A stretch of 40,623 nucleotides of DNA from an uncultured Microcaldota archaeon (GTDB lineage: Archaea; Micrarchaeota; Micrarchaeia; Burarchaeales; Fermentimicrarchaeaceae). The DNA lies in assembly GCA_903884505.1 (NCBI GenBank), contig CAISET010000036.1, forward strand, positions 72,741 to 113,363, written 5' to 3'. The translations under genes were made by a program, and so were the position numbers. Shown in pieces: positions 11,683-31,764 of the stretch (its first letter is position 1; each line of letters begins with the position of its first letter). The notes under the pieces were generated by a model. It was not told the origin of the DNA, did no database searches, and saw only the letters and a list, made by a program, of their open reading frames with translations.

Positions 11683-14600
11683 ACTGTTCCAGCGAGAACT
11701 GCTTCTTCGTCTCATCCTCGAAGACTGAAGAGATGTCATTCTCCAGCAGCATCAGCCTCTGCTTAAGATAGTTCGGCAGGCCGTACTTCTCCACCATTCC
11801 CTGCGAAATCTTCAAATATTTCTCAATACCGCCCTTTGAAATCGTCAAGACCAATTTTCCTCCGCACTTATCGCACTTCCCGGAGAGCGGCGCCCTGCGG
11901 TATTTCGAATTGCAGTCAACGCACCTGAGCGTCTGCTTGGAGAAGGAGCGCAGATTGCCGTATAAATCCGGGAGGAAGTGGCTCAGAATCACCCGCTCAG
12001 CCGAATCCTTGACATTCACCGCCCTTATCTTGCTGCAGAGCTCGAACTGGTAATCCACCTTCTCCTTCATGGACTTGAACTGGATATACTTTGTTTTGAG
12101 TGGCCCTCCATTAATCGAGGAGGCGGAATGGGAAAAGCGGAGCCCGGAATACTGCTCCGGCTTCCCGAGCCTTTCAGTCACCCTCTCCAGCTTGACTTCC
12201 GAAGGGCTGGCAAACTCCCTCGCAGCCTCGTAGAATTCCAGCGGGTAGGATGTGCATATCTCCATCGCATGGACCTCGTCATCAACCTCTTTCGGGTCTA
12301 TCTTCGTTGTCATGACGAGAGATGCGTCCATGTGCCCTCCCCGCAGCGCAGGGAGGTACTTCTTTGAGAAGTTCACGAGCGCATCGAGCAAAAGCATCGT
12401 AGAATCCTCATCCCCGTCGCAGTTTCTTCTCCTTGCGGCAATCATGTAGGGGTGGCAATAGCCCACGTGCGCCTGCGTGAAGCCCACAATCCTCCCAAGC
12501 ACCCCGCAGGAGGTGTGCGGGGCAAGCGTAATCACCATCTGCCCGAGCAAATCCTCCCTCTTCTGCGCATTGTAGAACGGGGGCAGCCCATAAACATAGA
12601 CCAGCAGGTCATCAACGAACCTGCTCGTCCGCATGAGATACTCCGCGCCGCTGTCGGCGAGCAGGATGTCCTGCGGCTTCAGCTCAACCAGCTGCTCCTC
12701 GCTCTTCAGCTCATCGCCTTCCGCATCCTTCGTGTAGCCGAGCTCGCGCAGCTTCTCGACCGGCACCATTATCTCCCTCGGGTAGAAGTGCGTGAGCGGC
12801 ACATCAGTCGCATCAAACCTCACGGTCCCGTCGCGGAACACGAACACCTTGTGCCTCGCCCTCAGAATCCCCTTCTCGATAAGTTCGGGTGCCTTGGTTT
12901 CGCTCACGAGGCCGATTACGCCCTTCACATCATCCGGCATTTCCCCTACGCGGGCGACCGCATCGTCAATCATCTTCGCGAAGTCTATCGAGCGCTTGTC
13001 ATATGGCTGCGTCTGGCCCTTGCAGACCGGGCATCCCTCCCCGATCGCCTTCCTTCCGCACCTGCTGCAGACCTGCTCGAGAACCGTCCTCGCCCCGCAG
13101 GTCTCGCACTTGTACCTCACACCCACGGTCTTGCAGTTCGGGCAGGCGAGCCGCACGACCTCAATCTCAAGCCCCTTCCCCTCGAACCTCTCCTTGTCCT
13201 TCGAGGACTTGTAGGCCTTCGTGATGCTGCGCACCTTCCCTCCCACTCCCCCTATCGGGAACAGGACGTGCGGGGCGGGCTTCATCAGCCTCTCCCTTGC
13301 CTTCTCGGGCCTCCCCATCCTCGAGCCTATGTAGGTCGGCGCCTTCGCCCTTATCTTCAGGCCCGAAACCTCGTTCACCAATTGGAGCGCGTTCTTCTCG
13401 GGCGAATAGGCCTTGTTGAATCTCTCGAGCGTAATCGCCTTGTTCGCGAGCATTCCCATGGATGAAAGGAGCGCGGTCGCATGGTCGGGCTCCAGCACCA
13501 CGAATTTCCCGTCAATCCCGTGCGGGATGCCGAGCTCTTCAAGAATCAATTTAGCAGGCGAGGCCTCAACGCGGAATTCCTTGAGCCTGAACCAGTCATA
13601 AGCCAGCTTCCCGCTCGCAAGCCAGTCCGCAAGCTGCCTCAGCGCCTGCGCACCGACATCGTGCCAGCAATAGGTGAATTTCGGCGCAAGCGGGACCCCC
13701 AGCTTCTGCGCAAGCTTAATCGAATCATCCGCGGAAATCCCCCGTGCATCGACCTTCGGCGGCGCCTCATTCCTCCCCTTCGCCGCCTTCTCCAGCTCAG
13801 CAGCCCACTGCTCCTCGCAATAGCCCCCGGGGACGAGTGGGTGGTTTGACTTCAGGAAATCCCCGTAGGAAACGAGAATGTCCCCGAGGAAGAGAATCCT
13901 CTCCACTTTGTCCCTTACCTTTCCGGCCTCCTCCAGCGAATTCACCTGAACGACCGAGCCGTCCGAAAGCCTCACAATCGGCCCGTCAATCGAGTCGCAG
14001 GGGGTCACAACGCAGCCCTTCCCGGGCCGCTCAAGCTTGAACTGCGTCCCGATTGCCGGGAACTCATCCAGCAGAACCATTGTCGCAGGATGGATTGCCT
14101 TCGCGGCAATCCCGGTCATCCTCGTCCTACCATACCTTAAGCGGAAGCCCCCTTTCTCGCTCGGGTAGCTAAAGATGGGCCTCCCGGCCACCAAATCATC
14201 CAAAAACTTCTCATTCGGCTTAATCTCCACCTTCCCCTCCTTCTTCGCAATCTTTACCAGCCCCTCGAGCCAGCCCCAGTTCACCCCAATTTTCTTCGTA
14301 TACCTGAGGACCTTGGATGCCTTCTGTGCAATCCCCTCGCAAACCACGAGCGCAATTCCCCCCCTTATCCTATCCGTCTCAACCCTTTCCAGGCCCTTGT
14401 GCACCGAAACCTCGAACTCCTCGGTCGGGTCGCCATCTATGCAGACGGGGCAGTTCCTGACAATCTGCCGCACGTCGTCATCAGGGGGCTTGTATTGCAG
14501 CCTTGCCGCCCGCGCATCGTAAATATTAACTTCTTCAACATACCTCTCGACTTCCGTGTCCGTTGGCCTGAAGTCCGCAATCCCGAACTGCTGCCTTGCG

Positions 14601-16699: not shown

Positions 16700-16969
16700 C
16701 TACTCCCTAATCGATTCGAGCGCGCTCAAAATCGTCCATATCTGAGTTCTCGCATGCGCAGGCATGTTGATGTCGTTCGACACCTCATCAAGGGCATAGA
16801 CTGCGCTGCTCGTCTTCTGGATTAGCTCCTCATTCCCCAGCAGCTTCTCCCTTGCTTCGCTCACCGCCTTCCTCACATTCTTCGGGATGGAGGTGTCGTT
16901 AATCACGATATCCATGAGGCTCGCAATCTGCCTCAGCTTCTCCTCAGCGCTTCTCGTTGGCAATGCCAT
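16700..16969 (-). CDS. UPF0147 family protein
   Basis: A small helical archaeal protein of 89 residues. The family pattern is clear: IVINDTSIPKNVRKAVSEA in the first half and LDEVSNDINMPAHARTQIW in the second. The function of the family is unknown. The ATG at 16969 is chosen because GGAAGGTGAG precedes it by three bases; a TTG at 16984 would place that Shine-Dalgarno sequence inside the coding region. The tRNA-Arg gene ends 24 bp upstream on the same strand. Confidence 0.9.
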   Translation of the reverse strand: MALPTRSAEEKLRQIASLMDIVINDTSIPKNVRKAVSEAREKLLGNEELIQKTSSAVYALDEVSNDINMPAHARTQIWTILSALESIRE

Positions 16970-17007
16970 CTTCTCACCTTCCAAAGCATAAAACGGGCCC
17001 GGTGGGA

Positions 17008-17051
17008 TTTTCGGCTCCCGCCGAAAGTGCCTCGACTTTCAGGCGAGCGCA
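17008..17051 (-). other. tRNA-Arg intron 2, in the T loop (44 nt)
   Basis: Inserted between TTCAAA and T of the T loop. Intron GCGCTCGCC pairs with GGCGGGAGC (one mismatch) and is extended by GAAAGT/ACTTTC. Exon TTCA faces CGAA, with an AAT bulge on each strand, so this is a good bulge-helix-bulge site whose predicted cuts restore the exact T loop. Confidence 0.78.
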
Positions 17052-17073
17052 TTTGAACCCACGACCTTCAGCT

Positions 17074-17118
17074 ATCTGCGTTTCTACGCTTTTGCGCCTT
17101 TCAGCTTAAAAGCGTTCT
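17074..17118 (-). other. tRNA-Arg intron 1, canonical 37/38 site (45 nt)
   Basis: Inserted after A37 next to the anticodon. It contains a perfect eight-base-pair stem, ACGCTTTT with AAAAGCGT. Exon bases 32-35 (CTTC) can pair with intron GCAG apart from one mismatch, leaving three-base bulges TAA and ATA as in a bulge-helix-bulge site. Confidence 0.8.
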
Positions 17119-17185
17119 TAGAAGGCTGCCGCGCTATCCAGGCTGCGCCACGGGCCCGTTCAGGCTTAGAATTGCGGGATTCCGC

Positions 17186-17203
17186 ATTAATAAAGCTTAT
17201 AAG
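17186..17203. promoter_or_regulatory. Divergent TATA boxes of tRNA-Arg and the beta-helix gene
   Basis: CTTATAAG (17196-17203) is centred about 30 bp before the ATG at 17230 and predicts a leaderless transcript. TTTATTAAT on the minus strand (17194-17186) lies about 33 bp before the tRNA-Arg 5' end. Confidence 0.5.
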
Positions 17204-17229: not shown

Positions 17230-20200
17230 ATGGGTAGTGACCATCGCGCCCAAGCCGCCATAGAATTTCTTATCACAAACGGCTGGGCAATCCTCGTAGT
17301 AGTCATTCTTCTTGCCGTCCTCTTTTACATCGGAGTTTTGAGCCCACAGAACACCACTCCGAACACCTGCCTCTTCCAACCAGGCTTCTCCTGCTACACA
17401 TTCAAAGTCGGAAACGGCACCGGAAGTCTAGAATTAGATTTCGGCCAGGCAACCGGCAGATCAATCCAAGTCACAGGCATCTCCTGCTCCCAGAACGCAA
17501 CTGCCGCGCTTCATACGTCTCCCCTTGCGGAGGACGTCACAGTCCCAAGCGGCGAGCACAGATGGATAACCGGAGGAACTTCCAACAACAGCGGCATCAT
17601 CTGCGAAGGCGCAACAGGCGTGGCAGGCACGAGATACAAAGGAACAGCCTGCGTCAATTACACCGAATCAGGCACAAATGCCCAAAGGCTGGTCTGCGGC
17701 GAAATAAACGCACGGCTGGAGCCGGCGTCCATACCAAGCGGAAGCCCGACAACGACGCCATTTCCCACACCGCCACCCGGTGCAGTCCTCATCGACACCT
17801 GTCCGTTCACAATCGACACGACTGGCTACTATTACCTGAACAGCAGCCTGAATGATGAGTCTGGAAGCGGCTGCGTAACCATAACCGCGGCCGGCAGCAA
17901 CTCCATCCTGGACTGCTATGGCAAAACCATCACGGGCACTTCTCAAGGCGGCAGCGGCGTCTACATAACGTATGGCATCACGAGCGTAACGGTCAGGCAC
18001 TGCAACATCAACAGCTTCTGGGCCGGCATTTACACGGAGGGTGCAAACGACAACAGCACCATTGATGACAACACCGCGTATTCGAATTATATGGGCATCC
18101 TCTCTTCCGGCTTCACCAACAGCAGAATCACAAACAACGATGTCTCGTCGAACCTCGACAGTGGCATGATCCTCTATTCCTCATCCGACAACAACCTCAC
18201 AAGCAACACCGCCAACTCAAACGTCAACTACGGCTTAGGCATGTGGGATTCTTACTACAACACCATTACGGGCAATACTATCAACGCAAACAGCTACTAC
18301 GGCTTTTACATGAGCTCGCCTGACAACAATCTCACGGGCAACACCGCCTGCTGGAACCAGGGTGGGAACATCTACTGCGATGCTGGGCAGAATGACTTGG
18401 GCGGCAACGTCTGCACTCCATACGAGGAAAGCGTGTGCTTGGACAGCATCACCTGCCACGCCACCTGCCCGCCCCCGCCGCCTCCTGCATGTGCGCCCGG
18501 CTTTGTGGTGAGCACATGCCCATGCACGCTAACCGTTCCAGGCGACTACACGCTTGAGAGCGACCTAAACGAAACACTGGGCGGTGACTGCATAGACATC
18601 ATGGCAGACGACGCGCATCTTGACTGCCAGCACCACAGCATCACGGGCGTGGGCGGTGGCGCTGGCATCATGGTATACAACTGGATTACCTCCAGCACAA
18701 GCGGGGTGACGGTTGAGAACTGCAACGTGGGCAACTTCTCCTTTGGCATCTTCCCGCAGAATGTTGGCAACAGCAGCATCACGGGCAACACCGTCAGCTC
18801 GAACAGCGAGTATGGCATTTTCCTAGTCGGCTCGTCCGGCAACAACCTCTCAGACAACGACGCCACTTCGAACTATGTTGGCATCTACCTAGTCAGCTCG
18901 TCCGACAACAACACCGTAACGGGCAACAGCGTACTAGGGAACAGCTATTATGGTTTCGAAGCGGACTCAGGCTCCACCAACAACCTCCTCACGGAGAATA
19001 CTATCTGCTGGAACCAAAACGGAGACTTCCAATGCGACGCGCCCCAAACCGAAGGCAACGGAAATATTTGCACGCCATACGAAGGAAGCGTGTGCTCAAG
19101 CAGCATCACCTGCAACCCAACCTGCCCGCCACCAAACGCGCCTGCCTGCGCCCCCGGTTGGGTCGTAAGCGCCTGCCCATGCACGCTGGCAGTCCCAGGC
19201 AACTACACGCTTGAAAGCGACCTGAATTCAACGGGCGGCGTCTGCATTGACATGCTCTCCGGTGCAAGTGGCTCCACATTGGACTGCCAGGGCCACAACA
19301 TCACTGGAGCCGGCAATGGGATTGGCATCGACGCCTATTATGCGGATGGGATTGCAATCAAAAACTGCACTCTGGGCAGCTTCGACTATGGCATCCACCT
19401 GGTCTTATCAAACGACAGCACCATAACCGGCAACACCGCAACCTCGAACAACCAGTACGGCATCGTCCTGTACTCGTCCAACGGCAATAATCTCACAAGC
19501 AACAACGCCAGCCTGAACAATTACTACGGAATTTATTCGGACTCCTATTCGAGCAACAATCTCTTCACGGGCAACAGCGCCTGTTCAAACACGAACAAGG
19601 ATGTCTACTGCGAAGTCCCGCAGAATGATGGCGGCGGCAACACCTGCCTGCCAGTCGGAGACGAGACTTCCTGCTCCTACAGCGTCTCCTGCGGAGGCGG
19701 CTGCCCGCTTCCGCCACCGCCCGCCTGCGCGCCCGACTGGGTTATAAGCTCCTGCGGCTGCGCGCTGGATGTTCCGGGCAATTACACGCTGGAAAGCGAC
19801 CTGGTATCTACTGGCAGCGACTGCCTATCCATACCATCCAGCGGGAGCGGCGCCAGCCTCGACTGCCAGGGCCATAGCATCATCGGGGCGGCCGGGAGCA
19901 GCGCCATTAACGTGCAATATGCGGGCAGTGTGGCCATACAGAATTGCAATATGATAAACTTCTCCGCTGGCATTTACCTTTGGGAGTCCAACCATGATAC
20001 CATAAGGGACAACAACGCCAGCCTGGATTACGATGGCATCTATATGTATGATTCCAACCGCAACATTTTCACGAACAATAACTTCAGCTCGAACTCCCAA
20101 TACGGGTTCTACCTAAGTAGCTCGTCCCAAAACAACAGCTTCACGGGCAACACGGCCACTGGGAATCATGAGTTTGACTTCCAGTGCGGGACCGAATTGG

Positions 20201-21714
20201 CTAGCAACGATTACGGCAACACATGTGGCACGCAATCCGGCTGCGAGTCATGGATTACCAGCTGCGGCGTTCCTTCGACCTGCAGCTCCACAAGCATCAC
20301 GGACTGCTGCGTCATCAGGTCTCCCGGCTCGTACTCCCTTGCGAACGACATCTCCGCACCCAATACCTGCATCATCATCACGCCAGCCGCCAACGGCATG
20401 GTGCTTGACTGCGGCGGCAAGTCAATCATCGGCCCGGGAAGCGGCCCCGACAGCGGCTCCGGCATATACATGAAGGACGTAAGCGGTGTGACCGTTAGGG
20501 ACTGCAACGTGAGCAACTTCAATACCGGCATCTATTCCGACTACACCATGTCCAACGTCACCATCGAGGGCAACACCGCCACCTCGAACACCTTCGGCAT
20601 CACGTCGAATTCATTCTACTACTGCACTATCAGGGGCAACACCGCCAATTCGAACAGCTGGTACGGCATCGGTGCGGGCAACTTTGGTTCTGCAAATATT
20701 ACGGGCAACACGGCAAACTCGAACGGTGAATATGGCATCGTCGCGAGCTATGGCCACGACAGCAACATAACCGGCAACACCGCCAGCCTAAACGGCAACG
20801 TCGGCATCTACCTGGATGGCATTTCCGCTACGGGCATAACCGGCAATACCCTCCACTCAAACGGGGGCAACGGCATTGAAATGACCTCGTCCGGCAACAA
20901 CGACTTTTCGGGTAACACCGTGACTGGCAGCGCCAGCTACGATTTCGCCTGCCTCAGCAGCGAGACGAACAACGACCTGGGCAACACGTGCGGCACTCAG
21001 CACAACTGCGACGCATGGTTCACAAGCTGCGGCATTACAATCTGCAATTCCAGCATCACGGACTGCTGCACCATCACGTCTCCGGGCTCGTATTACCTTT
21101 CGAACAGCCTTACCTCCTCCAGCACGTGCATACTCGTCAGGTCCGGAGCTAACGGCTCCACCCTGGATTGCCGGGGGCACAGCATAAGGGGGCCCGGCTC
21201 CACCAGTTATGAAGCCTACGGCATCCGGCTTAGCGGCGCAAGCGGGGTGACCGTTGAGAACTGCAACGTCACCAACTTCGGAAAGGGCATCCGCCTGGAT
21301 TCAGGGGCAGCAGGCAATCTCATAACCGGCAACAATGCAAGCTCGGACACGAGCGGCATCGAACTGATGTGGTCCAACGGCAACACCATCTCTGGCAACA
21401 GCGTCACAGCGGACATTGCCGGCATCTGGCTGGGCGGAAACGGCAACACCGTTTCAGGCAATAACGCGACCTCAGACATCAGTGACGGCATCCTCCTGTA
21501 TTATTCCGAAGAAAACCGGGTGAGCGGCAACATCGCAAACTCGAACAGCAACTATGGCATACGCATGGTCTCATCCCGCAACACCAATCTCACAAGCAAC
21601 ACCGCCACGGGCAATGGGAATTACGACTTCTACTGCGATGGCTCAGGGGGACGTGACCTTGGGGACAACTTCTGCAGCAACAAGGATTCCTGCGACTGGC
21701 TCACCTGCCATTAG
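17230..21714 (+). CDS. Giant surface protein: type IV pilin-like N-terminus fused to parallel beta-helix modules
   Basis: 1494 residues. The N-terminus MGSDHRAQAAIEFLITNGWA plus a hydrophobic helix is a class III (preflagellin/pilin) signal: the peptidase would cut after HRA, before QAAIEF. A region with Cys and N-glycosylation sequons follows. From about residue 187 there are six repeated modules. Each opens with a motif like CPCTLxVPGxYTLESDL and LDCxGHxITG, continues with right-handed beta-helix (NosD/CASH-type) repeats of about 22 residues such as ITGNTATSNNxYGI, and closes with a Cys cluster. The first modules are joined by CPPPPPPA-type linkers. It is probably a secreted or pilus-associated carbohydrate-binding or adhesive protein. 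A catalytic role (lyase, epimerase) cannot be excluded. The start is set by the TATA box at 17196-17203. Confidence 0.85.
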   Translation: MGSDHRAQAAIEFLITNGWAILVVVILLAVLFYIGVLSPQNTTPNTCLFQPGFSCYTFKVGNGTGSLELDFGQATGRSIQVTGISCSQNATAALHTSPLAEDVTVPSGEHRWITGGTSNNSGIICEGATGVAGTRYKGTACVNYTESGTNAQRLVCGEINARLEPASIPSGSPTTTPFPTPPPGAVLIDTCPFTIDTTGYYYLNSSLNDESGSGCVTITAAGSNSILDCYGKTITGTSQGGSGVYITYGITSVTVRHCNINSFWAGIYTEGANDNSTIDDNTAYSNYMGILSSGFTNSRITNNDVSSNLDSGMILYSSSDNNLTSNTANSNVNYGLGMWDSYYNTITGNTINANSYYGFYMSSPDNNLTGNTACWNQGGNIYCDAGQNDLGGNVCTPYEESVCLDSITCHATCPPPPPPACAPGFVVSTCPCTLTVPGDYTLESDLNETLGGDCIDIMADDAHLDCQHHSITGVGGGAGIMVYNWITSSTSGVTVENCNVGNFSFGIFPQNVGNSSITGNTVSSNSEYGIFLVGSSGNNLSDNDATSNYVGIYLVSSSDNNTVTGNSVLGNSYYGFEADSGSTNNLLTENTICWNQNGDFQCDAPQTEGNGNICTPYEGSVCSSSITCNPTCPPPNAPACAPGWVVSACPCTLAVPGNYTLESDLNSTGGVCIDMLSGASGSTLDCQGHNITGAGNGIGIDAYYADGIAIKNCTLGSFDYGIHLVLSNDSTITGNTATSNNQYGIVLYSSNGNNLTSNNASLNNYYGIYSDSYSSNNLFTGNSACSNTNKDVYCEVPQNDGGGNTCLPVGDETSCSYSVSCGGGCPLPPPPACAPDWVISSCGCALDVPGNYTLESDLVSTGSDCLSIPSSGSGASLDCQGHSIIGAAGSSAINVQYAGSVAIQNCNMINFSAGIYLWESNHDTIRDNNASLDYDGIYMYDSNRNIFTNNNFSSNSQYGFYLSSSSQNNSFTGNTATGNHEFDFQCGTELASNDYGNTCGTQSGCESWITSCGVPSTCSSTSITDCCVIRSPGSYSLANDISAPNTCIIITPAANGMVLDCGGKSIIGPGSGPDSGSGIYMKDVSGVTVRDCNVSNFNTGIYSDYTMSNVTIEGNTATSNTFGITSNSFYYCTIRGNTANSNSWYGIGAGNFGSANITGNTANSNGEYGIVASYGHDSNITGNTASLNGNVGIYLDGISATGITGNTLHSNGGNGIEMTSSGNNDFSGNTVTGSASYDFACLSSETNNDLGNTCGTQHNCDAWFTSCGITICNSSITDCCTITSPGSYYLSNSLTSSSTCILVRSGANGSTLDCRGHSIRGPGSTSYEAYGIRLSGASGVTVENCNVTNFGKGIRLDSGAAGNLITGNNASSDTSGIELMWSNGNTISGNSVTADIAGIWLGGNGNTVSGNNATSDISDGILLYYSEENRVSGNIANSNSNYGIRMVSSRNTNLTSNTATGNGNYDFYCDGSGGRDLGDNFCSNKDSCDWLTCH
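17788..21714 (+). repeat. Six diverged coding modules of the beta-helix protein
   Basis: Module starts, approximately: 17788, 18490, 19140, 19728, 20290 and 21045. Modules 2-4 share the opening CAPxWVxSxCxC; modules 5 and 6 share SSITDCCxIxSPGSYxL. The last three are joined by N(D)xGNTCGTQ-type Cys clusters in place of Pro linkers, so there are two subfamilies and duplication probably happened in stages. Confidence 0.75.
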
Positions 21715-24580: not shown

Positions 24581-27500
24581 CTACGTTGGGACCTGTGTGC
24601 ATGCCCCGTTCAAGCAGCTCGTTCCCCGCGGGCAGGTCACGATACTCGTCACGACTCCGGGATCCTGGCCAGGCGTCTTGCAGTCATATTCGTACAGCCT
24701 GCTGCTGTCAAGGCAGTAGTCCGTAAACGAGCCGGAGCCTCCGGTTGCCAGCGTGCCGGTCGCAGTCCCCTTAAGATAGATGTTTGATTCCCGTGGCGTG
24801 TCATTGTCCGTGTCGCTGCACATCTGCACCGGCGTCGGTGTGGGGGTCGGCGTTGGCGCAATGTAGCACCAGTAGGCTACGTGCGTGACGATGTTCGGGT
24901 TTCGGATGCACGAAAGGCCCTGGTCGCAGCAGGCGTCGCTCTGTGGGTTGCACGAGCCTCCTCGCTGTATGCAGGCCGGGGTTGGTGTGGGCGTCGGGGT
25001 CGCCGGCACTCCGCACCAGTAAACCAGCGCCACAACCACGTTGGGGTTGGGCACGCATGCGAGGTTCGCATCGCAGCACCTGTCCGTGTTGGGGCTGCAG
25101 GCTGCGCCGCTCTGCCTGCACGGGGTTGGGGTCGGGGTTGGCGTGGGCGTAGGCTGCTGGGCGCACCAGTACGCGACGTGCGTGTATATGTTCGGATTCT
25201 GCACGCACGAGAGCCCAGTGCCGCAGCAGCTGTCAACTCCCGGAGTGCAGCTCTGCCCGTCCTGCTTGCACGGGGTTGGGGTCGGCGTCGGCGTGGGCGT
25301 TGCAGCGGGCTGGCACACGTATATTGCCGCTACCGCAACCTGCGAGCTTAGCCTGCACGTGTCCGTGGTCTCGCAGCACCGGTCGGTGTTCGGCGAGCAG
25401 ACTTCTCCGGTCTTCCTGCACGTCCCGTTCCCCGGCGCACACAAGTTGTTCACGCAGGTTCCCTGGCAGCAGTCATTATCGTTCACGCAGCGCCCTCCGC
25501 TCCCATTGCATCCCTGCGGGATTTCGCGGCAGTATCCCTGCCAGCAGCGCGAGCCTTCGCAGCAGTTGCTCTGGAAGTTGTTCGGGTTCACTAGCGACTG
25601 GTAGGTCACCGGAGGCACGTAGCACTGCCCTCCGGGCTGCACGCACGCATTCGGGCCCTCGCACATGTTGTTCACGCACGCCATCCCGTTGCAGCAGTCT
25701 CCGAAGTTCAGGCGCAGGATGCCGGTTCCCTGCGAAAGGCCGCACCTTTCGCCCTGGTTCCTGCAGACGTTCGGGCATTCCTCCTGCGGCGGGACGCAGA
25801 TATTATTCTGGCATGCTGCGCCCTGGCAGCATTCGCCGTAATAATAGACCTGGTTCGTCTGCTGGTCGTAAGCCCTTCCGCAGCGGTCGAACGCCTTCTT
25901 GCACAGGGTGTCGTTGTTGCACGGCCCGCTGTATGCCTGATACGTTCCTGCGCACCTTGCCCTGCACGGGTTGCCGTAGGTCTTCCCATCAGCGCCGCAG
26001 ACGGGGTCGTAGACCTGCGGGCAGTCGCATGCCGGCGGGTTGCTGCAGTAATAGTTTATGCACGACAATCCCTGGCAGCAGTCGCCGTAGGACGGCACGA
26101 GCATCGCGAGGGATGTCTGCGGTGGCGAGCCGCACCTTGCCCCATCCGTCCCGCATGCATTGTCGGGCCCCTTGCAGATGCCGTCGTCTCCGCAGTAGGC
26201 GCCCGAGTTCGGGCAGCACGGCTTGTTGGCGCTGCACTGCTCGCCAACCTTCGCGCACAGGTCCACGCAGGCGTAATTCTCCGGGTCACAGATTCCGGAG
26301 CAGCACTGCTCGTCCAGCTTGCACCCTGTTCCGGTCGCGGAGCAGTCGTTGCCCCTCTTCTTGCAGACTCCGTCGCTGCACCATTGCGAGCAGCACTGCG
26401 CGCCCTTCTCGCACGTTTTTCCTTCGGGCAGGCAGGCGTTTGACGGGCCGCAGTAGTTGTCCACGCAGCTTCCGGAGCAGCAGTCGCTTCCGACCTGGCA
26501 GCGGTCCGCGTCCGGCCTGCATTCCGGCTTCACGCAGACCTTCGGCGGGATGTAAGCGGTCGTAGCCGCGCTGGCATATGTGTCCTTGCAGTCATATCCG
26601 TCGCAGCACGCCTTGTTGGCGCAGCTTTCGCCCTGTATTGCGCACTCATCTATCTTCTGCTTGCAAGCGCCGTCCGAGCAGATGAAGCCGTCGCAGCACG
26701 TGCTCCAGGAAACGTCGGTGCAGATTTTCTCTCCGGTGACGTTGTCAATCGTGCAGCCTGCAGTTGACTGGTAGCATTGGTCTCCACCCTGGCCGCAAGC
26801 GTTCCTCGGGTTGCATTCGCCAGGAGTGAGCTTGTTCGGGTCTATCCCTCCGCACCTTGCGATGCACATGTTCGGGTAGGTCTTGTTCTCGGAAGTGAGG
26901 CAGACGGGGTTCCAGTCCGTCGGGCATCCGCAGTCAATCTGCGGGCAGTCGTTCGGGCTTTCAACAACTGAGCCGTCCGCGCAGGTATATTCATGGGGCT
27001 TCTGGCACAATCCGTTTATGCACATGGCTCCCTCGCAGCATGTCTGGTCCGAGGCGTAGTTCGTGGCAACGCCCGCAACGACCTGGCACGGCAGCCCCTC
27101 CTTCACGCAAAGGTTCGCGCACGGGCCGCCGTAAGCAATTCCGAGATTCTTGCACATCGCAACGCACTTGTTCTCGTAAGTCTTCCCATCGGCCCCGCAC
27201 ACGGGATCCCAGTTTGCCATGCAGAGGCACGGCGTTGCCTCCGGCTGCAGGCTTAGCGGCGGGCATCGGTCCCGGCTCATAGCGATGGTGCCGTCTGGGC
27301 AGGTGTAATAATCGGGCTGCTGGCACATTCCGCTAACGCACGCCCCTTCGCAGCATTCCCTCGTTATCTGCGCGGCGCCCGTGGTCGCAAGCACGCCGCA
27401 CGCCTCATTGAACTGCGCGCATACAAGCCCGCACGTCCCGTTCTTGAATTGCGCTATGCCTGAGCATCTCGCAGCGCACATGTTCGGGTAGGTCTTTCCA

Positions 27501-27703
27501 TCCGAGCCGCACACCGGGTCCCACGTGGTGGGGCAGTTGCACGGGCTGCTGTTCGTGCAGAACGTCACTTCGCCGGAGGTGCACGTCCCGTTCCCGGTGA
27601 TGTTGCTCAATGAGAGATTTCCGCCATTGATGCAGCCGAAAAGCAGCATCGCAGCAACTACAACAAGACACGTACCTAGATACCTATACCCGGAATTAGC
27701 CAT
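24581..27703 (-). CDS. Large Cys-rich lipoprotein with four Kazal-like domains
   Basis: About 1040 residues with over a hundred cysteines. The signal ends in LLFGC, a good lipobox. Kazal-like domains (CxCPxxWDPVCGxDGKTYxNxC) lie at about 50-92, 160-197, 258-300 and 556-597. Between them are many knottin-like units with the pattern C-x6-C-x(n)-CC-x-G-x-C-x4-C. At about 765-950 come four near-identical units of about 48 residues (CSPNTDRCC, then NPNxxxxxxYWC) joined by Pro-Thr linkers, and the C-terminus is the Cys module shared with the neighbouring secreted proteins. Kazal domains commonly inhibit serine proteases; inhibition here is inference. The ATG at 27703 follows AGGTGG; the frame begins three codons earlier with GTG. 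Confidence 0.82.
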   Translation of the reverse strand: MANSGYRYLGTCLVVVAAMLLFGCINGGNLSLSNITGNGTCTSGEVTFCTNSSPCNCPTTWDPVCGSDGKTYPNMCAARCSGIAQFKNGTCGLVCAQFNEACGVLATTGAAQITRECCEGACVSGMCQQPDYYTCPDGTIAMSRDRCPPLSLQPEATPCLCMANWDPVCGADGKTYENKCVAMCKNLGIAYGGPCANLCVKEGLPCQVVAGVATNYASDQTCCEGAMCINGLCQKPHEYTCADGSVVESPNDCPQIDCGCPTDWNPVCLTSENKTYPNMCIARCGGIDPNKLTPGECNPRNACGQGGDQCYQSTAGCTIDNVTGEKICTDVSWSTCCDGFICSDGACKQKIDECAIQGESCANKACCDGYDCKDTYASAATTAYIPPKVCVKPECRPDADRCQVGSDCCSGSCVDNYCGPSNACLPEGKTCEKGAQCCSQWCSDGVCKKRGNDCSATGTGCKLDEQCCSGICDPENYACVDLCAKVGEQCSANKPCCPNSGAYCGDDGICKGPDNACGTDGARCGSPPQTSLAMLVPSYGDCCQGLSCINYYCSNPPACDCPQVYDPVCGADGKTYGNPCRARCAGTYQAYSGPCNNDTLCKKAFDRCGRAYDQQTNQVYYYGECCQGAACQNNICVPPQEECPNVCRNQGERCGLSQGTGILRLNFGDCCNGMACVNNMCEGPNACVQPGGQCYVPPVTYQSLVNPNNFQSNCCEGSRCWQGYCREIPQGCNGSGGRCVNDNDCCQGTCVNNLCAPGNGTCRKTGEVCSPNTDRCCETTDTCRLSSQVAVAAIYVCQPAATPTPTPTPTPCKQDGQSCTPGVDSCCGTGLSCVQNPNIYTHVAYWCAQQPTPTPTPTPTPCRQSGAACSPNTDRCCDANLACVPNPNVVVALVYWCGVPATPTPTPTPACIQRGGSCNPQSDACCDQGLSCIRNPNIVTHVAYWCYIAPTPTPTPTPVQMCSDTDNDTPRESNIYLKGTATGTLATGGSGSFTDYCLDSSRLYEYDCKTPGQDPGVVTSIVTCPRGTSCLNGACTQVPT
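24830..25420 (-). repeat. Four tandem Cys units with Pro-Thr linkers in the Kazal lipoprotein
   Basis: Coding repeats of about 145 bp. Each encodes a CxxxGxxCxPxxDxCC unit, an NPN-containing strand and YWC, then a PTPTPTP linker. The DNA is similar enough to recombine. Confidence 0.7.
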
Positions 27704-27734
27704 CTCGACCACCTGCGAAGATGTTGATGGCCGT

Positions 27735-27830: not shown

Positions 27831-28718
27831 CTATCCCCCGCACTTCCCGTTCCTGCACGCCTGCCCCCCTCCGCAGTCGGAATCGAAGATGCATTCCGCG
27901 CATCTTCCGCTCCATGGGTCGCACTTGCTTGAGCAGCAGTCGGAATCCGTCTTGCATGCGAGGCCATCCGGGAAGCAGAGCTGCTCGCACTGCCCGTACC
28001 TTGCCATCGTGGTGCCAGCGCACCTGGCGAAGCAGTCGTTCCTGTAGGTGCGGTTGTCGACACCGCAGACCTCCGGGCCTCCGCCGCTGCACACGCAGTC
28101 GTCATCGCAAGCCCCCTGGTAGCACTGGAACACGCAGAGATGCTCGGTGTAGTTCAGTTTCGGGCTCCTCTCGCTGTCAATGCAGTAATATTCGCGCAGG
28201 ACCGTCTCGTTGCCGTTCCAGTTGCAGATGTCCTCCCACAGGCCCACCACCCCGTTGTATTCCCCGAGCGTTGTTCCCCTGTGCGTGAAGTCAATCCTCG
28301 CATCCGTCTCCTTGCAAGGCCTGGCGGGCGCAGGTGTCGGGCTGGGCATTGGCGTAGGTGCCGGCGTGGGCGTTGGCACGGAAGTGACCCCGCACCTCCC
28401 CCCGATGCAGATGCACCTTCCCTGGCCGCAGTCCATGGTTCCGGGCTGGCACACCATGGTGCACATCACTCCGTTGCAGTTCGGCGCCTGGCCCTGCGCA
28501 ATGCAGGACATCGGGTGGCAGCACTGCGCAGGAACGCAGTCCGCATCGGTCTCGCATTCGGGCCCGGGAGCCGCGGTCGGCGTGGGCATGGGGGTCGGCG
28601 TGGCAGTCGGAGTCTGAGGCGGAGGTGTGGGGGTTGGCGTTGCCTGCGGCCCTCCTCCTATGCAGCCCAATAGCAGGGCAGCACAGAACATTATAACACA
28701 TAGACAACTTGCGCGCAT
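27831..28718 (-). CDS. Cys-rich lipoprotein with one Kazal-like domain
   Basis: About 295 residues. A lipoprotein signal (LLLGC) is followed by a Pro-Thr stalk, a Cys-rich domain (CETDADC, CCHPMSC), a second Pro-Thr stalk, a copy of the shared Cys module (CKETD, then LREYYC, CYQGAC), a Kazal-like domain (CVCSGGGPEVCGVDNRTY) and two short C-terminal Cys units (CKTDSDCCSSKC, CIFDSDCGGGQAC). It is built from the same parts as the large lipoprotein downstream and has the same start context, so the two are probably related by duplication and jointly expressed. The reading frame may be cut short by a one-base change in a G run near its stop (see findings). Confidence 0.8.
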   Translation of the reverse strand: MRASCLCVIMFCAALLLGCIGGGPQATPTPTPPPQTPTATPTPMPTPTAAPGPECETDADCVPAQCCHPMSCIAQGQAPNCNGVMCTMVCQPGTMDCGQGRCICIGGRCGVTSVPTPTPAPTPMPSPTPAPARPCKETDARIDFTHRGTTLGEYNGVVGLWEDICNWNGNETVLREYYCIDSERSPKLNYTEHLCVFQCYQGACDDDCVCSGGGPEVCGVDNRTYRNDCFARCAGTTMARYGQCEQLCFPDGLACKTDSDCCSSKCDPWSGRCAECIFDSDCGGGQACRNGKCGG

Positions 28719-28761
28719 CTCGACCACCAGCCTAATTTTTTCGGTCCCTGTTAAAAAAGCC

Positions 28762-31700
28762 CTACTCCCCTTTTTCTTCTTTCGGCTCGCCCATCCTCAT
28801 CTCGATAAGTTCGCTCATCCTTATCTCAAGAAGCTTGAGCCTCACGGCGTCGTCGCTGGGCAGCTCCTTCTTGAACGCCCTGATGTCCTTCTCGCGGTAG
28901 AATTTGTAAAGCCACTTCAGGTTTGGCTGATGGAAAGCCTCCTCCTCGCCCTGCCTGAGCACGTTCATCGCCTTGCACTGCGCGAGCTTCGCGTTGAGCT
29001 CCATCCTGAGCGTCGCGCTCTCTGCCTGCGGAGTCAGCCCAGCTTTTACATTGTCGGTTTTCGGCTTTTCCGCCCTCACAAGGACAGGCTCCCGTAGAGC
29101 TCTTTCAATCAGCTTCCTGTCCGCCGCATCATCCACATTCGATTCCCTCATCAGCATAATCTTCTCCTGCCTTGCAGATGCGAAATCCGCCTTCTTCATC
29201 TCAGAGAGAAACACGGCCTCCAATTCGAAGTGCATTTTCCCTTGCATTGCGGCCAGGTTCGGCAGCTTCTCCCTGAATTCGCCTGCGATAACCCTGAAGG
29301 GCACGCCCTCCTCTGAATTCGCGGCGCGCAGCAGCACATCGCCGTATTCTTCTGCGAACTCATTAACTGTCCTCTCGGAAGTTGCGAGCCAGAGATTGTT
29401 CAGCAGTTCCGCCTTCCGGTAAGCGTCGACAACGACTTTCTCCTTCTCAGGGTTCGCATCGAGCGCGGCCTCAAACGGCTTATCGAACGCCCTTATGGAC
29501 ATCTTCCTTTCCCAGGAGCCGTTGAGTGACTGCAATATCCGTATCGCAATCTTGTCCGTTTCGCGCTTCCCGTCGAACTGCGGAATCTCCGTGAATATGA
29601 ATTTGCGCAAATAAGCCAGCGCCGGGTCGTCGCAGTGATATGAGAAGCAGACGGCGAACTCCTCCCTCCGCTTGGCGTGCTTCTCCTGCTCCACACGGCT
29701 TGCCATCCTCTCGAACTCCTCCTTCGTCATCTCGAGCTGCGATTCGCTGAACTTCACCCCAATGTCCCATACCTTCCTAAGCCTATCCACCAGCTCCGGT
29801 TTCTCCTCCCTTTTCAGCGCAATCACGAGTGCCTTCAGAACCGCGTCGTTTTTCGAGAACTCGAACTCCGCCTTCAGCTGCCCGACCAGTTCGTCGTAGT
29901 CCTTTCTCCCAAGATGGTATTTCCACCAGACGTTATTATCGGCATCATCCACCAGGCACTCGAATGCCTTCCGCCCTGTTTTCAGCAGCCAGCCCCCAGC
30001 ATAGCCGTCCAGAAGCTCAATCTCCACGGGCACGGCGTCCGCAGGGACGTCCTTCGGCTCGACGCGCCTGCTCATCCTGCCCAGATACGCCTCGGTTTCC
30101 AGATAATCCGCAAGTGCGGTCGCCTTCTCGTCCTGGTGCTTTTGCAGGTAGCGCCCCACCTGCTGCGGGTAATACGCGACAACCTCCCTGCGCCTCTCTT
30201 CGGCCAGGTCCGCATCGAAGAAGCTCTTGCATTCCCCCACACTCAGGCGCTGGATGATTGCAGTAGCGGTTTTCTCGCGGACATAAAGGCCGAGCAGGAT
30301 TTTGCCGTCACTCCTCATGCCTTCCGGAAAGCATTTGTGCCGCAGGGCCACCTGCGCCGCAAGAAGCTCCTCGCGCCCCTTGTCCGCCACTTCCTTGTCA
30401 AAGAACTTCGCAAGCTCCACTTCCAGGCAGCCCTGCGCCTTTTTGCCCAAGTACTCCTCAAGCAGGGAATCCAGCGCATCCCTCTTCTCTGTGGCTGACT
30501 TTCCGTAGAGATTGGCAAGCTGGAACTCGAGCGGGTAAGCCGGCTCCTTTTCCCCTTCGTCGTGGTAATCGAAAGAGATGTCCACCCCGAGCTCCTTCAG
30601 GCTGGCCTTGAAGTTCCTGAAAACATCCGGGCAATATGGCAGGGCCTCAACCGCGATAGTCCCATGGAGCTTATGGGAGTCAATCTCCTTCTCAAAATTG
30701 GCCATCCACTCCCTTTCGGAATCCTTCAGCCCAACGAGGCACCCCACCGTCTTCAGGTACAGGTAGGCCGCGGTCTCCAGCTCCGCGGAATGCTTATAGT
30801 AGTCCCTTATCCGCGCCGCGTTGCCGGTTTTCGCAAACTCGCTGATGCGCGAGAACGCCTTCGTTGCAGCACTCTCGACGCGCTTCCCGTACTCGTCGGC
30901 CTTTTTCGCAGCTTTTTGGACGGCCGCCTTGTCACCTTTCCCGCTTTTCGCCATCGCATTCAGCGTCCCTGCGATTTCACCGGTGCGCTTGATCGTCGGC
31001 CCTAGCTTCTCAACGATTGCCATGCGGTTCCTGTCCATCGCCTCCACGCGGATGGCATTATGCTCCGTCGCGGTCAGCGCGCGTTTCAGGTTGTCCTCGA
31101 ACTTCTTCTCCAGCTCCTGGACGCAGAAGGCAAAGCTTTCAAGGCCTGCCGAGAACCGGAGGCTCTCCAGGATGCGCACATATCTCGTCTCGTCGCTCTT
31201 GGCAGGCCCCCCGTTTTGCCTGAACCCATCAAGGGCAACCGAATCCCTTATCTTCTGGCAAACGCTTTCAAGCATGAACTCTTCCTTTTGCCGGTAATAG
31301 ACGGAATACACCCTGGCCCTTTCCTTTGCCGCCACCACGGCCCGCTCAAAGGAATGGCTCTCCTTCGGCATGCAGCGCTTGGCCGCCTCAATCGCCTTAT
31401 CGTGCATGATGCTCCTCTGCGTGAAGCCATTGTCCGCATATTCCATGTCCGCGTACATGTCCGGGATGATGCGGACCCCGCCCTTGCCCAGCTCCTCGAG
31501 CAGATGCCGCCTGTCATCGGATATCAGCACCGGCAGGAGCGTGAAAAAGAAGTCAGCGCCCTTCGCGCCTTTGAAGGAGCGCTCGATGCTGTCCGGTGAT
31601 GTGAAATTGAAGAGAACCGCCACCTTCGTTTTCTGGCGCAGCACGCCACCTGGGCCCTTTTCGTCCTCCTTCAGGGGAGGCTGCTTCGGCATGGCCTCGT

Positions 31701-31764
31701 GCGGCTGTTCCGCCTTCTGCGGCGGCTCAGCTTTCACCGCGGGTTTCTCAGCATTAGCCTTCAT
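28762..31764 (-). CDS. Large 1000-residue cytosolic protein of unknown function
   Basis: No family recognised. The N-terminus (about 1-40) is low-complexity, rich in K, P, E and A. The rest is globular, helix-rich and highly charged, with no signal peptide, no membrane segment and no obvious P-loop, zinc or nuclease motif. An alpha/beta-looking stretch (KVAVLFNFTSPDS) opens the globular part near residue 46. The TATA box at 31787-31793 places the transcript start at the ATG (31764), so the gene looks intact and expressed alone. Its position between the surface-lipoprotein cluster and the mobile region gives no clue to its role. Confidence 0.85.
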   Translation of the reverse strand: MKANAEKPAVKAEPPQKAEQPHEAMPKQPPLKEDEKGPGGVLRQKTKVAVLFNFTSPDSIERSFKGAKGADFFFTLLPVLISDDRRHLLEELGKGGVRIIPDMYADMEYADNGFTQRSIMHDKAIEAAKRCMPKESHSFERAVVAAKERARVYSVYYRQKEEFMLESVCQKIRDSVALDGFRQNGGPAKSDETRYVRILESLRFSAGLESFAFCVQELEKKFEDNLKRALTATEHNAIRVEAMDRNRMAIVEKLGPTIKRTGEIAGTLNAMAKSGKGDKAAVQKAAKKADEYGKRVESAATKAFSRISEFAKTGNAARIRDYYKHSAELETAAYLYLKTVGCLVGLKDSEREWMANFEKEIDSHKLHGTIAVEALPYCPDVFRNFKASLKELGVDISFDYHDEGEKEPAYPLEFQLANLYGKSATEKRDALDSLLEEYLGKKAQGCLEVELAKFFDKEVADKGREELLAAQVALRHKCFPEGMRSDGKILLGLYVREKTATAIIQRLSVGECKSFFDADLAEERRREVVAYYPQQVGRYLQKHQDEKATALADYLETEAYLGRMSRRVEPKDVPADAVPVEIELLDGYAGGWLLKTGRKAFECLVDDADNNVWWKYHLGRKDYDELVGQLKAEFEFSKNDAVLKALVIALKREEKPELVDRLRKVWDIGVKFSESQLEMTKEEFERMASRVEQEKHAKRREEFAVCFSYHCDDPALAYLRKFIFTEIPQFDGKRETDKIAIRILQSLNGSWERKMSIRAFDKPFEAALDANPEKEKVVVDAYRKAELLNNLWLATSERTVNEFAEEYGDVLLRAANSEEGVPFRVIAGEFREKLPNLAAMQGKMHFELEAVFLSEMKKADFASARQEKIMLMRESNVDDAADRKLIERALREPVLVRAEKPKTDNVKAGLTPQAESATLRMELNAKLAQCKAMNVLRQGEEEAFHQPNLKWLYKFYREKDIRAFKKELPSDDAVRLKLLEIRMSELIEMRMGEPKEEKGE

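Follow-up and report, generated by a model that had tools for sequence, protein, structure and literature searches.

The DNA analysed here, which we call the window, is a stretch of 40,623 nucleotides from an uncultured Microcaldota archaeon, and it carries on its forward strand (17230..21714) an uninterrupted open reading frame that starts with ATG and encodes 1494 aa. This locus raises the question of why a protein that begins as a prepilin should continue as a giant array of beta-helix modules, and what such a protein would do. An earlier note on this DNA had recognised a preflagellin-type signal at the N-terminus. This was borne out: the junction MGSDHRA/QAAIEFLITNGWAILVVVILLAVLFYIGV is arranged as in class III/prepilin signals, the mature protein having Q at position +1 and E at position +5. 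However, the description of the N-terminus as a pilin signal leading a beta-helix protein was incomplete, as residues 8-165 (158 aa) form a full type IV pilin, comprising the alpha-1 helix and the beta-sandwich, and go well beyond a mere signal. The simple anchor that had been envisaged as an alternative is not what was found, since the N-terminus carries an entire pilin. The features of the locus are collected in Table 1. The spacing between the TTATAAG motif and the ATG probably fits a leaderless archaeal promoter.

Table 1. Coordinates of the features discussed (window positions, unless a locus of the genome is named).
Feature	Position	Strand	Basis or remark
Prepilin (class III) leader MGSDHRA	17230..17250	+	Predicted cut before Q8; sequence; [RK][AG]/Q kept in paralogues
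Complete type IV pilin domain	17251..17724	+	Alpha-1 helix mature 2-27, beta-sandwich mature 39-157; AlphaFold, Foldseek, stand-alone homologues
Ser/Thr/Pro linker (ASIPSGSPTTTPFPTPPPGA)	17725..17784	+	Sequence; low-confidence stretch in model
Beta-helix module 1	17785..18489	+	
Beta-helix module 2	18490..19146	+	
Beta-helix module 3	19147..19725	+	
Beta-helix module 4	19726..20280	+	
Beta-helix module 5	20281..21042	+	
Beta-helix module 6 + stop codon	21043..21714	+	Best NosD stretch 1328-1485
Probable TATA box TTATAAG	~17197-17203	+	~27-33 bp 5' of ATG; putative, read from sequence
Small conserved gene	16703..16969	-	With ArgRS and DP1 brackets the fusion-gene insertion point; 71% identical in G003
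tRNA-Arg-like sequence with intron-like inserts	16994..17157	-	By-eye alignment to G003 L233 and to called tRNA-Arg(TCT) at the corresponding site of L249
Interrupted leaders	L079:5034-5420; L077:2085-2270 and 12326-12540; L083:1591-2523; L086:1359-1673; L079:14785-14900		

The assignment of the N-terminal domain is based on its predicted structure and on stand-alone homologues. AlphaFold, run with 47 homologues, folds the pilin domain into a single long helix and a domain resembling a beta-sandwich (pLDDT 83). When this model was compared with the PDB by Foldseek, the top hit was to the type IV pilus of Pyrobaculum (8fk7, E 3.7e-4), the Sulfolobus AAP pilus (8q30) ranking fifth; the global TM-scores with known pilins were modest (0.37-0.43, Foldseek), and by sequence the domain showed no significant relation to PDB chains. 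Residues Q1, A3, E5, L7, G11 and W12 (mature numbering) are invariant across the 47 homologues. The same domain exists as stand-alone proteins of 156-191 aa in this genome and in relatives, and those of the same genome are 38-45% identical to it.

The source genome (G000) is a 1.51-Mb draft in 37 contigs, with a completeness of 100 and a contamination of 1.87. The two components that the earlier note had proposed to look for, a class III signal peptidase and a pilus ATPase, are both encoded: profile searches identified two A24 prepilin peptidases (PF01478) and seven T2SSE-type secretion ATPase matches (PF00437), together with nine matches to T2SSF platform proteins (PF00482). Both A24 peptidases keep, by eye, the first-loop aspartate and the second-site aspartate in GGAD or SGD, and one of them carries the archaeal A24 C-terminal domain as well. 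The EppA-type peptidase (PF06847) was absent from the G000 profile search, in which the controls were detected, so an A24 (PibD/FlaK-like) enzyme would have to process the leader. An EppA-processed class III signal protein was rejected for the same reason and because the PF04021 signal profile misses the window gene; in G000 this profile hit two other genes only, below the cut-off. The window gene has no adjoining ATPase; the nearest one of the pilus type, on the same contig, lies some 24 kb upstream. On contig C15, an ATPase gene and two T2SSF genes adjoin a run of four pilin fusions, the first of which is a paralogue of the window gene. This block is syntenic with contig C51 of G003, a genome of the same family and a different genus, which likewise ends in a fusion gene. 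Some T2SSE ATPases encoded beside platform genes bear an N-terminal 4Fe-4S ferredoxin-like domain (L072:4388-6715, corresponding to C36:64387-66714; L099; L100); Pfam confirms the Fe-S part in the C36 copy, whereas in the C33 and C29 copies it is only a cysteine pattern seen by eye.

The window gene belongs to a large family. A search of G000 with the first 165 residues gave 34 matches. A closely similar pilin domain is shared by at least 12 distinct copies, of which eight are complete genes (781-1775 aa as open frames); the others are cut at contig ends, consistent with a repeat that breaks the assembly. The longest fusion has 1775 aa in G000 and 2008 aa in a relative (L104). The architecture is not a product of chance, since it is found at least 12 times in the source genome and also in another genus. 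The passengers of the paralogues comprise 3-8 beta-helix modules; those of C1b, C30 and C32 end in beta-propeller-like repeats (read from the sequence), others include Ig-like/invasin domains, and some show a weak resemblance, far below the cut-off, to the TafC fimbrial family. G000 also encodes small undecorated pilins and has 101 NosD matches in all. Elsewhere in the Micrarchaeota, this pilin domain is fused to DUF2341, a laminin-G/concanavalin-type lectin or NHL repeats, which makes grafting onto this pilin a broader habit of the group. For most of the 60 relatives included in the search, the open frames listed are about 160-190 aa long, i.e., undecorated.

Two further observations were made on these loci. 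A giant beta-helix protein (C1c) has a lipoprotein-like N-terminus (LLCGC) and no pilin, that is, a similar head on a different anchor; its gene is apparently split over two contig ends sharing 35 residues (L073:1-2946 and L092:8764-13545). In addition, the leaders of several fusion genes contain in-frame insertions of palindrome-rich DNA (e.g., GTCACC-TTC-GGTGAC and GTCGCC-TCC-GGCGAC), with part of the leader duplicated (AQSAIE...GQSAMEF). We counted 66 palindromic hairpins in 400 kb of loci, in partly overlapping stretches, where a simple mononucleotide shuffle would predict roughly 15. They are clustered, are present elsewhere too, and look like small palindromic repeat elements.

Among 12 paralogues, the pilin domains share on average 88% of their residues and only 63% of their fourfold-degenerate sites, for which codon usage alone predicts an identity of about 0.37; mature residues 1-45 are 97-100% identical. 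The contrast with the passenger is illustrated by the C25b and C30 paralogues: at an equal silent distance (0.66), 11% of the residues differ between their pilins and 37% between their third modules. The excess of protein over silent identity indicates, at the level of the sequences compared, that the pilin adaptor is under long-standing purifying selection and is no fresh copy. Recent gene conversion or duplication as the source of the near-identical pilins was discarded, since the fourfold sites are only 63% identical; an older or ongoing homogenisation after the split of the genera is compatible with the data.

We consider it likely that the product of the gene is a modular type IV pilin of the archaeal type, the heads of the family acting as pilus-displayed adhesins. 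The foremost alternative, which we regard as rather unlikely, is that the N-terminal helix serves as a membrane anchor only and that the product is a monomeric or complex-bound surface protein spanning the surface layer without any pilus, as in the Sulfolobus bindosome. Class III signals are indeed described, in passages of the archaeal type IV pilus census, on PibD-processed substrate-binding proteins that are not pilins (PMC4858521). Many large paralogues are more easily pictured on a membrane than in a filament, and the giant beta-helix protein C1c of the same genome starts with a lipoprotein-like sequence instead. However, an anchor would need the helix only, whereas the entire pilin beta-sandwich has been kept in at least 12 paralogues at 88% identity while the silent sites diverged. 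Moreover, undecorated pilins with the same domain exist, and the fusions cluster with ATPase and platform genes in two genera.

The passenger of this putative modular pilin is covered by NosD/Beta_helix Pfam profiles (E 6e-89, 8 stretches) and by 18 stretches matching the TIGR03804 beta-helix repeat. The six modules proposed earlier were recovered, as N-cap 'LDC' marks occur at six places and define the module starts. Structure prediction, suggested in the earlier note as a check, returned a right-handed beta-helix for the modelled module (pLDDT mostly 85-95), and the joint model runs from the pilin through a low-confidence linker (pLDDT <50 at mature residues 159-169) to the beta-helix. The number of rungs had been put too high, at over 60: the 34 asparagine-ladder (N-ladder) marks in the passenger and the approximately 9 rungs modelled in the approximately 205 residues of module 1 give a total of roughly 35-50. 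Three other identities were tried and rejected. The NosD maturation protein of nitrous-oxide reductase is not supported by TIGR04247 (157/300 bits) or by the neighbourhood (ArgRS, PolD subunits, acyl-CoA synthetase); an alginate epimerase or lyase is contradicted by the NF038177 (AlgG) score (18.7/700 bits) and by the lack of conserved catalytic-type residues in 83 modules; and a viral origin is not supported, as none of 16 pattern matches in viral contigs was a relative.

These comparisons also bear on whether the modules could be enzymes, polysaccharide lyases or epimerases carried on pili to attack the polysaccharide of a partner cell or matrix, which we judge very unlikely. The Foldseek neighbours of module 1 do include GH87 glucanase, the AlgG/AlgE epimerases and DFA-IIIase, along with phage tailspikes, but these matches are at the level of the fold, with low TM-scores. 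The positions conserved over the 83 modules are structural (Cys, Gly, Ile and Asn, with the N-cap LDC); neither an acid, a base or a His conserved along the rungs nor conserved ligand-binding residues were identified in this comparison, and six similar modules in tandem would better suit multivalent binding than catalysis.

We then compared the evolution of adaptor and heads between G000 and G003. In the pilin tree, sequences cluster by genome (2 changes, versus a mean of 5.8 after shuffling), with supports of 99/96 for the main G000 set and 97/97 for the G003 set; one undecorated pilin pairs across genomes (97/94). A clade uniting the pilins of C25b (G000) and L104 was rejected (p-AU 0.0002), this pair having been picked after the identities were seen. 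In contrast to the pilin tree, the module tree interleaves the two genomes, its 14 changes being no improvement on shuffling, and modules 3-6 of C25b group with modules 3-6 of L104. Between these two genes, fourfold identity is at chance level in the pilin (0.33-0.36) and reaches 0.54-0.90 in the passenger, from ~0.55-0.6 at its start to 0.77-0.90 at its end, so that silent identity climbs stepwise along the gene (0.36, ~0.55, 0.65, 0.8, 0.9). For comparison, the values for core genes are 0.46 (DP2), 0.49 (DP1) and 0.42 (the C15 ATPase), other flanking genes being similar. The resulting baseline of ~0.42-0.52 includes only long frames judged to be true, a selection made after the values were seen; a pooled baseline of 0.65 was discarded, as wrong-frame ORFs inflate it. 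As the silent identity of the beta-helix modules (0.55-0.91) exceeds that of core genes (about 0.46), the passenger is younger than the G000/G003 split, which points to horizontal exchange of beta-helix heads between genera.

A second case is provided by the C16 (G000) and C98 (G003) loci, which are collinear on both sides and whose passengers differ beyond the first module; the passenger has been replaced at this syntenic locus. Two adjacent frames beside tRNA genes at C16/C98 are outliers from the baseline (fourfold identities of 0.81 and 0.72) and may themselves have been transferred. One observation at this place concerns a 597-aa protein of no known family, encoded next to tRNA genes (L240:5974-7764, on C16 within 89195-91907; G003 C98:956-3618): the two copies share 83% of their amino acids and have a fourfold identity of 0.81, versus ~0.46 for core genes, which suggests another transferred gene. 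That the mosaicism is a draft-assembly or binning artefact of a plain duplicated family, which would leave the modular-pilin architecture standing, is most improbable: several copies are indeed truncated within the repeated pilin domain by the end of a contig, as would happen if repeats broke the assembly, but in both genomes pilins and passengers of opposite affinity coexist within single intact ORFs (C25b, 1545 aa; L104, 2008 aa), a stepwise rise in silent identity is not expected from one chimeric join, and the C25b, C30, C15 and C1a paralogues all give the same pattern.

The window gene itself occupies a site that is empty in relatives. At the matching place of G003, ArgRS, the small gene, DP1 and DP2 are consecutive and the fusion gene is absent, and G001 and G007 have ArgRS, the small gene and DP1 in the same order, again without it. 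In the window, ArgRS was identified by reading. The tRNA-Arg-like sequence was missed by ARAGORN and Rfam, and no Rfam element was found near the fusion gene. The fusion gene sits 5' of this sequence, unlike the situation with integrases, which usually use the 3' end of tRNAs. Farther along the window, a gene on the reverse strand (24581-27712) encodes a 1043-aa protein with three matches to Kazal-type serine protease inhibitors, in an archaeon. Beside it, on the same strand, are genes for proteins of 298 aa (27831-28727) and 1000 aa (28762-31764) with no Pfam family above the cut-off; the latter has a homologue in G003 (50% identity).

If the gene encodes a modular pilin, an A24-family prepilin peptidase would cut the 7-residue leader before Q8, and a secretion ATPase with T2SSF platform proteins would extract the pilin domain from the membrane and add it to a type IV pilus, where it would pack via alpha-1. 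The flexible Ser/Thr/Pro linker would let the six-module beta-helix of ~1,300 residues protrude from the pilus. The long fibre displayed through the pilus machinery that the earlier note had put forward survives the search for peptidases, ATPases, T2SSF proteins and a whole pilin; that the head is adhesive or polysaccharide-binding is suggested by its fold and by the architecture. The head would probably be located at the pilus tip, possibly along the shaft or at rare shaft positions. The tip or rare shaft positions are favoured because the bulky graft of Streptococcus sanguinis PilB was modelled as tip-only (PMC8179133) and ComZ of Thermus thermophilus is argued to be at the tip (PMC6561018); heads this bulky may be unfit for the filament shaft. 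As alpha-1 is nearly invariant, the paralogues would compete for one pilus site. The head most likely binds, multivalently, a glycan or matrix on the surface of a partner cell or substrate. Heads would diversify and recombine, also with those of other lineages, and the adaptor would co-evolve with the pilus of its own species.

An adaptor that stays the same within a species, with heads swapped and shared between species, is what one would expect if interchangeable surface-gripping proteins formed a kit. For the largely open question of how DPANN archaea recognise partner cells and stay attached to them, swappable pilus-borne heads are a concrete candidate for the apparatus. More tentatively, and with a probability that we put below even, this DPANN archaeon may possess a recombining head repertoire, in which one species-specific adaptor would serve at least a dozen giant heads and cassettes traded between Micrarchaeota lineages would reset the recognition of the partner cell (host). 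If true, head exchange would be the archaeal counterpart of antigen or tail-fibre variation. An adaptor conserved within lineages and heads shared between them make a clean natural experiment in surface-protein recombination.

Regarding known systems, no on-point paper on an archaeal or DPANN pilin with a beta-helix was found in the open-licence PMC literature, the coverage of which is incomplete. The pilus structures that gave the best fold matches, Pyrobaculum 8fk7 and Sulfolobus AAP 8q30, share the order of helix and beta-sandwich, but the subunits deposited there are short, at 136 and 141 residues, with no graft. The bindosome proteins of Sulfolobus are non-pilin extracellular binding proteins with a class III signal; in the window protein such a signal is present, and what comes directly after it is a complete pilin domain and not the binding domain. 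In its passages, the archaeal census describes PilY-like DUF2341 proteins and class III minor pilins, and large proteins are proposed to decorate pili (PMC4858521). The likeness to the PilY-like proteins extends to DUF2341 itself, which is fused to the present pilin domain in another Micrarchaeon; unlike here, the large proteins in those passages are linked by locus and not fused, and neither DPANN nor beta-helices appear there. ComZ is a minor pilin that, like the window protein, bears a large beta-solenoid; it binds DNA, two lysines being important (PMC6561018). However, the ComZ solenoid is inserted in the pilin beta-sheet, whereas here it is C-terminal to the pilin and has six modules, and the whole 1494-aa protein has 9 lysines only. 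A further parallel is with PilB and PilC of S. sanguinis, modular pilins in which a non-pilus domain is likewise grafted via a short linker onto an N-terminal pilin module, adhesion having been shown for PilB (Raynaud et al. 2021, PMC8179133). The same paper reports over 1,200 modular pilins in bacteria, the longest quoted having 860 aa. The proteins described here differ from them by their archaeal pilin with a QxAxE signal, by their length (1494-2008 aa), by passengers of 3-8 beta-helix modules, by at least 12 paralogues built on one adaptor per genome, and by exchange of passengers between genera. Modular pilins were thus already known; what is new is their archaeal, giant and multi-copy form and the evolution of adaptor and heads, which extends modular pilins to the Archaea at about twice the length of the longest quoted bacterial case.
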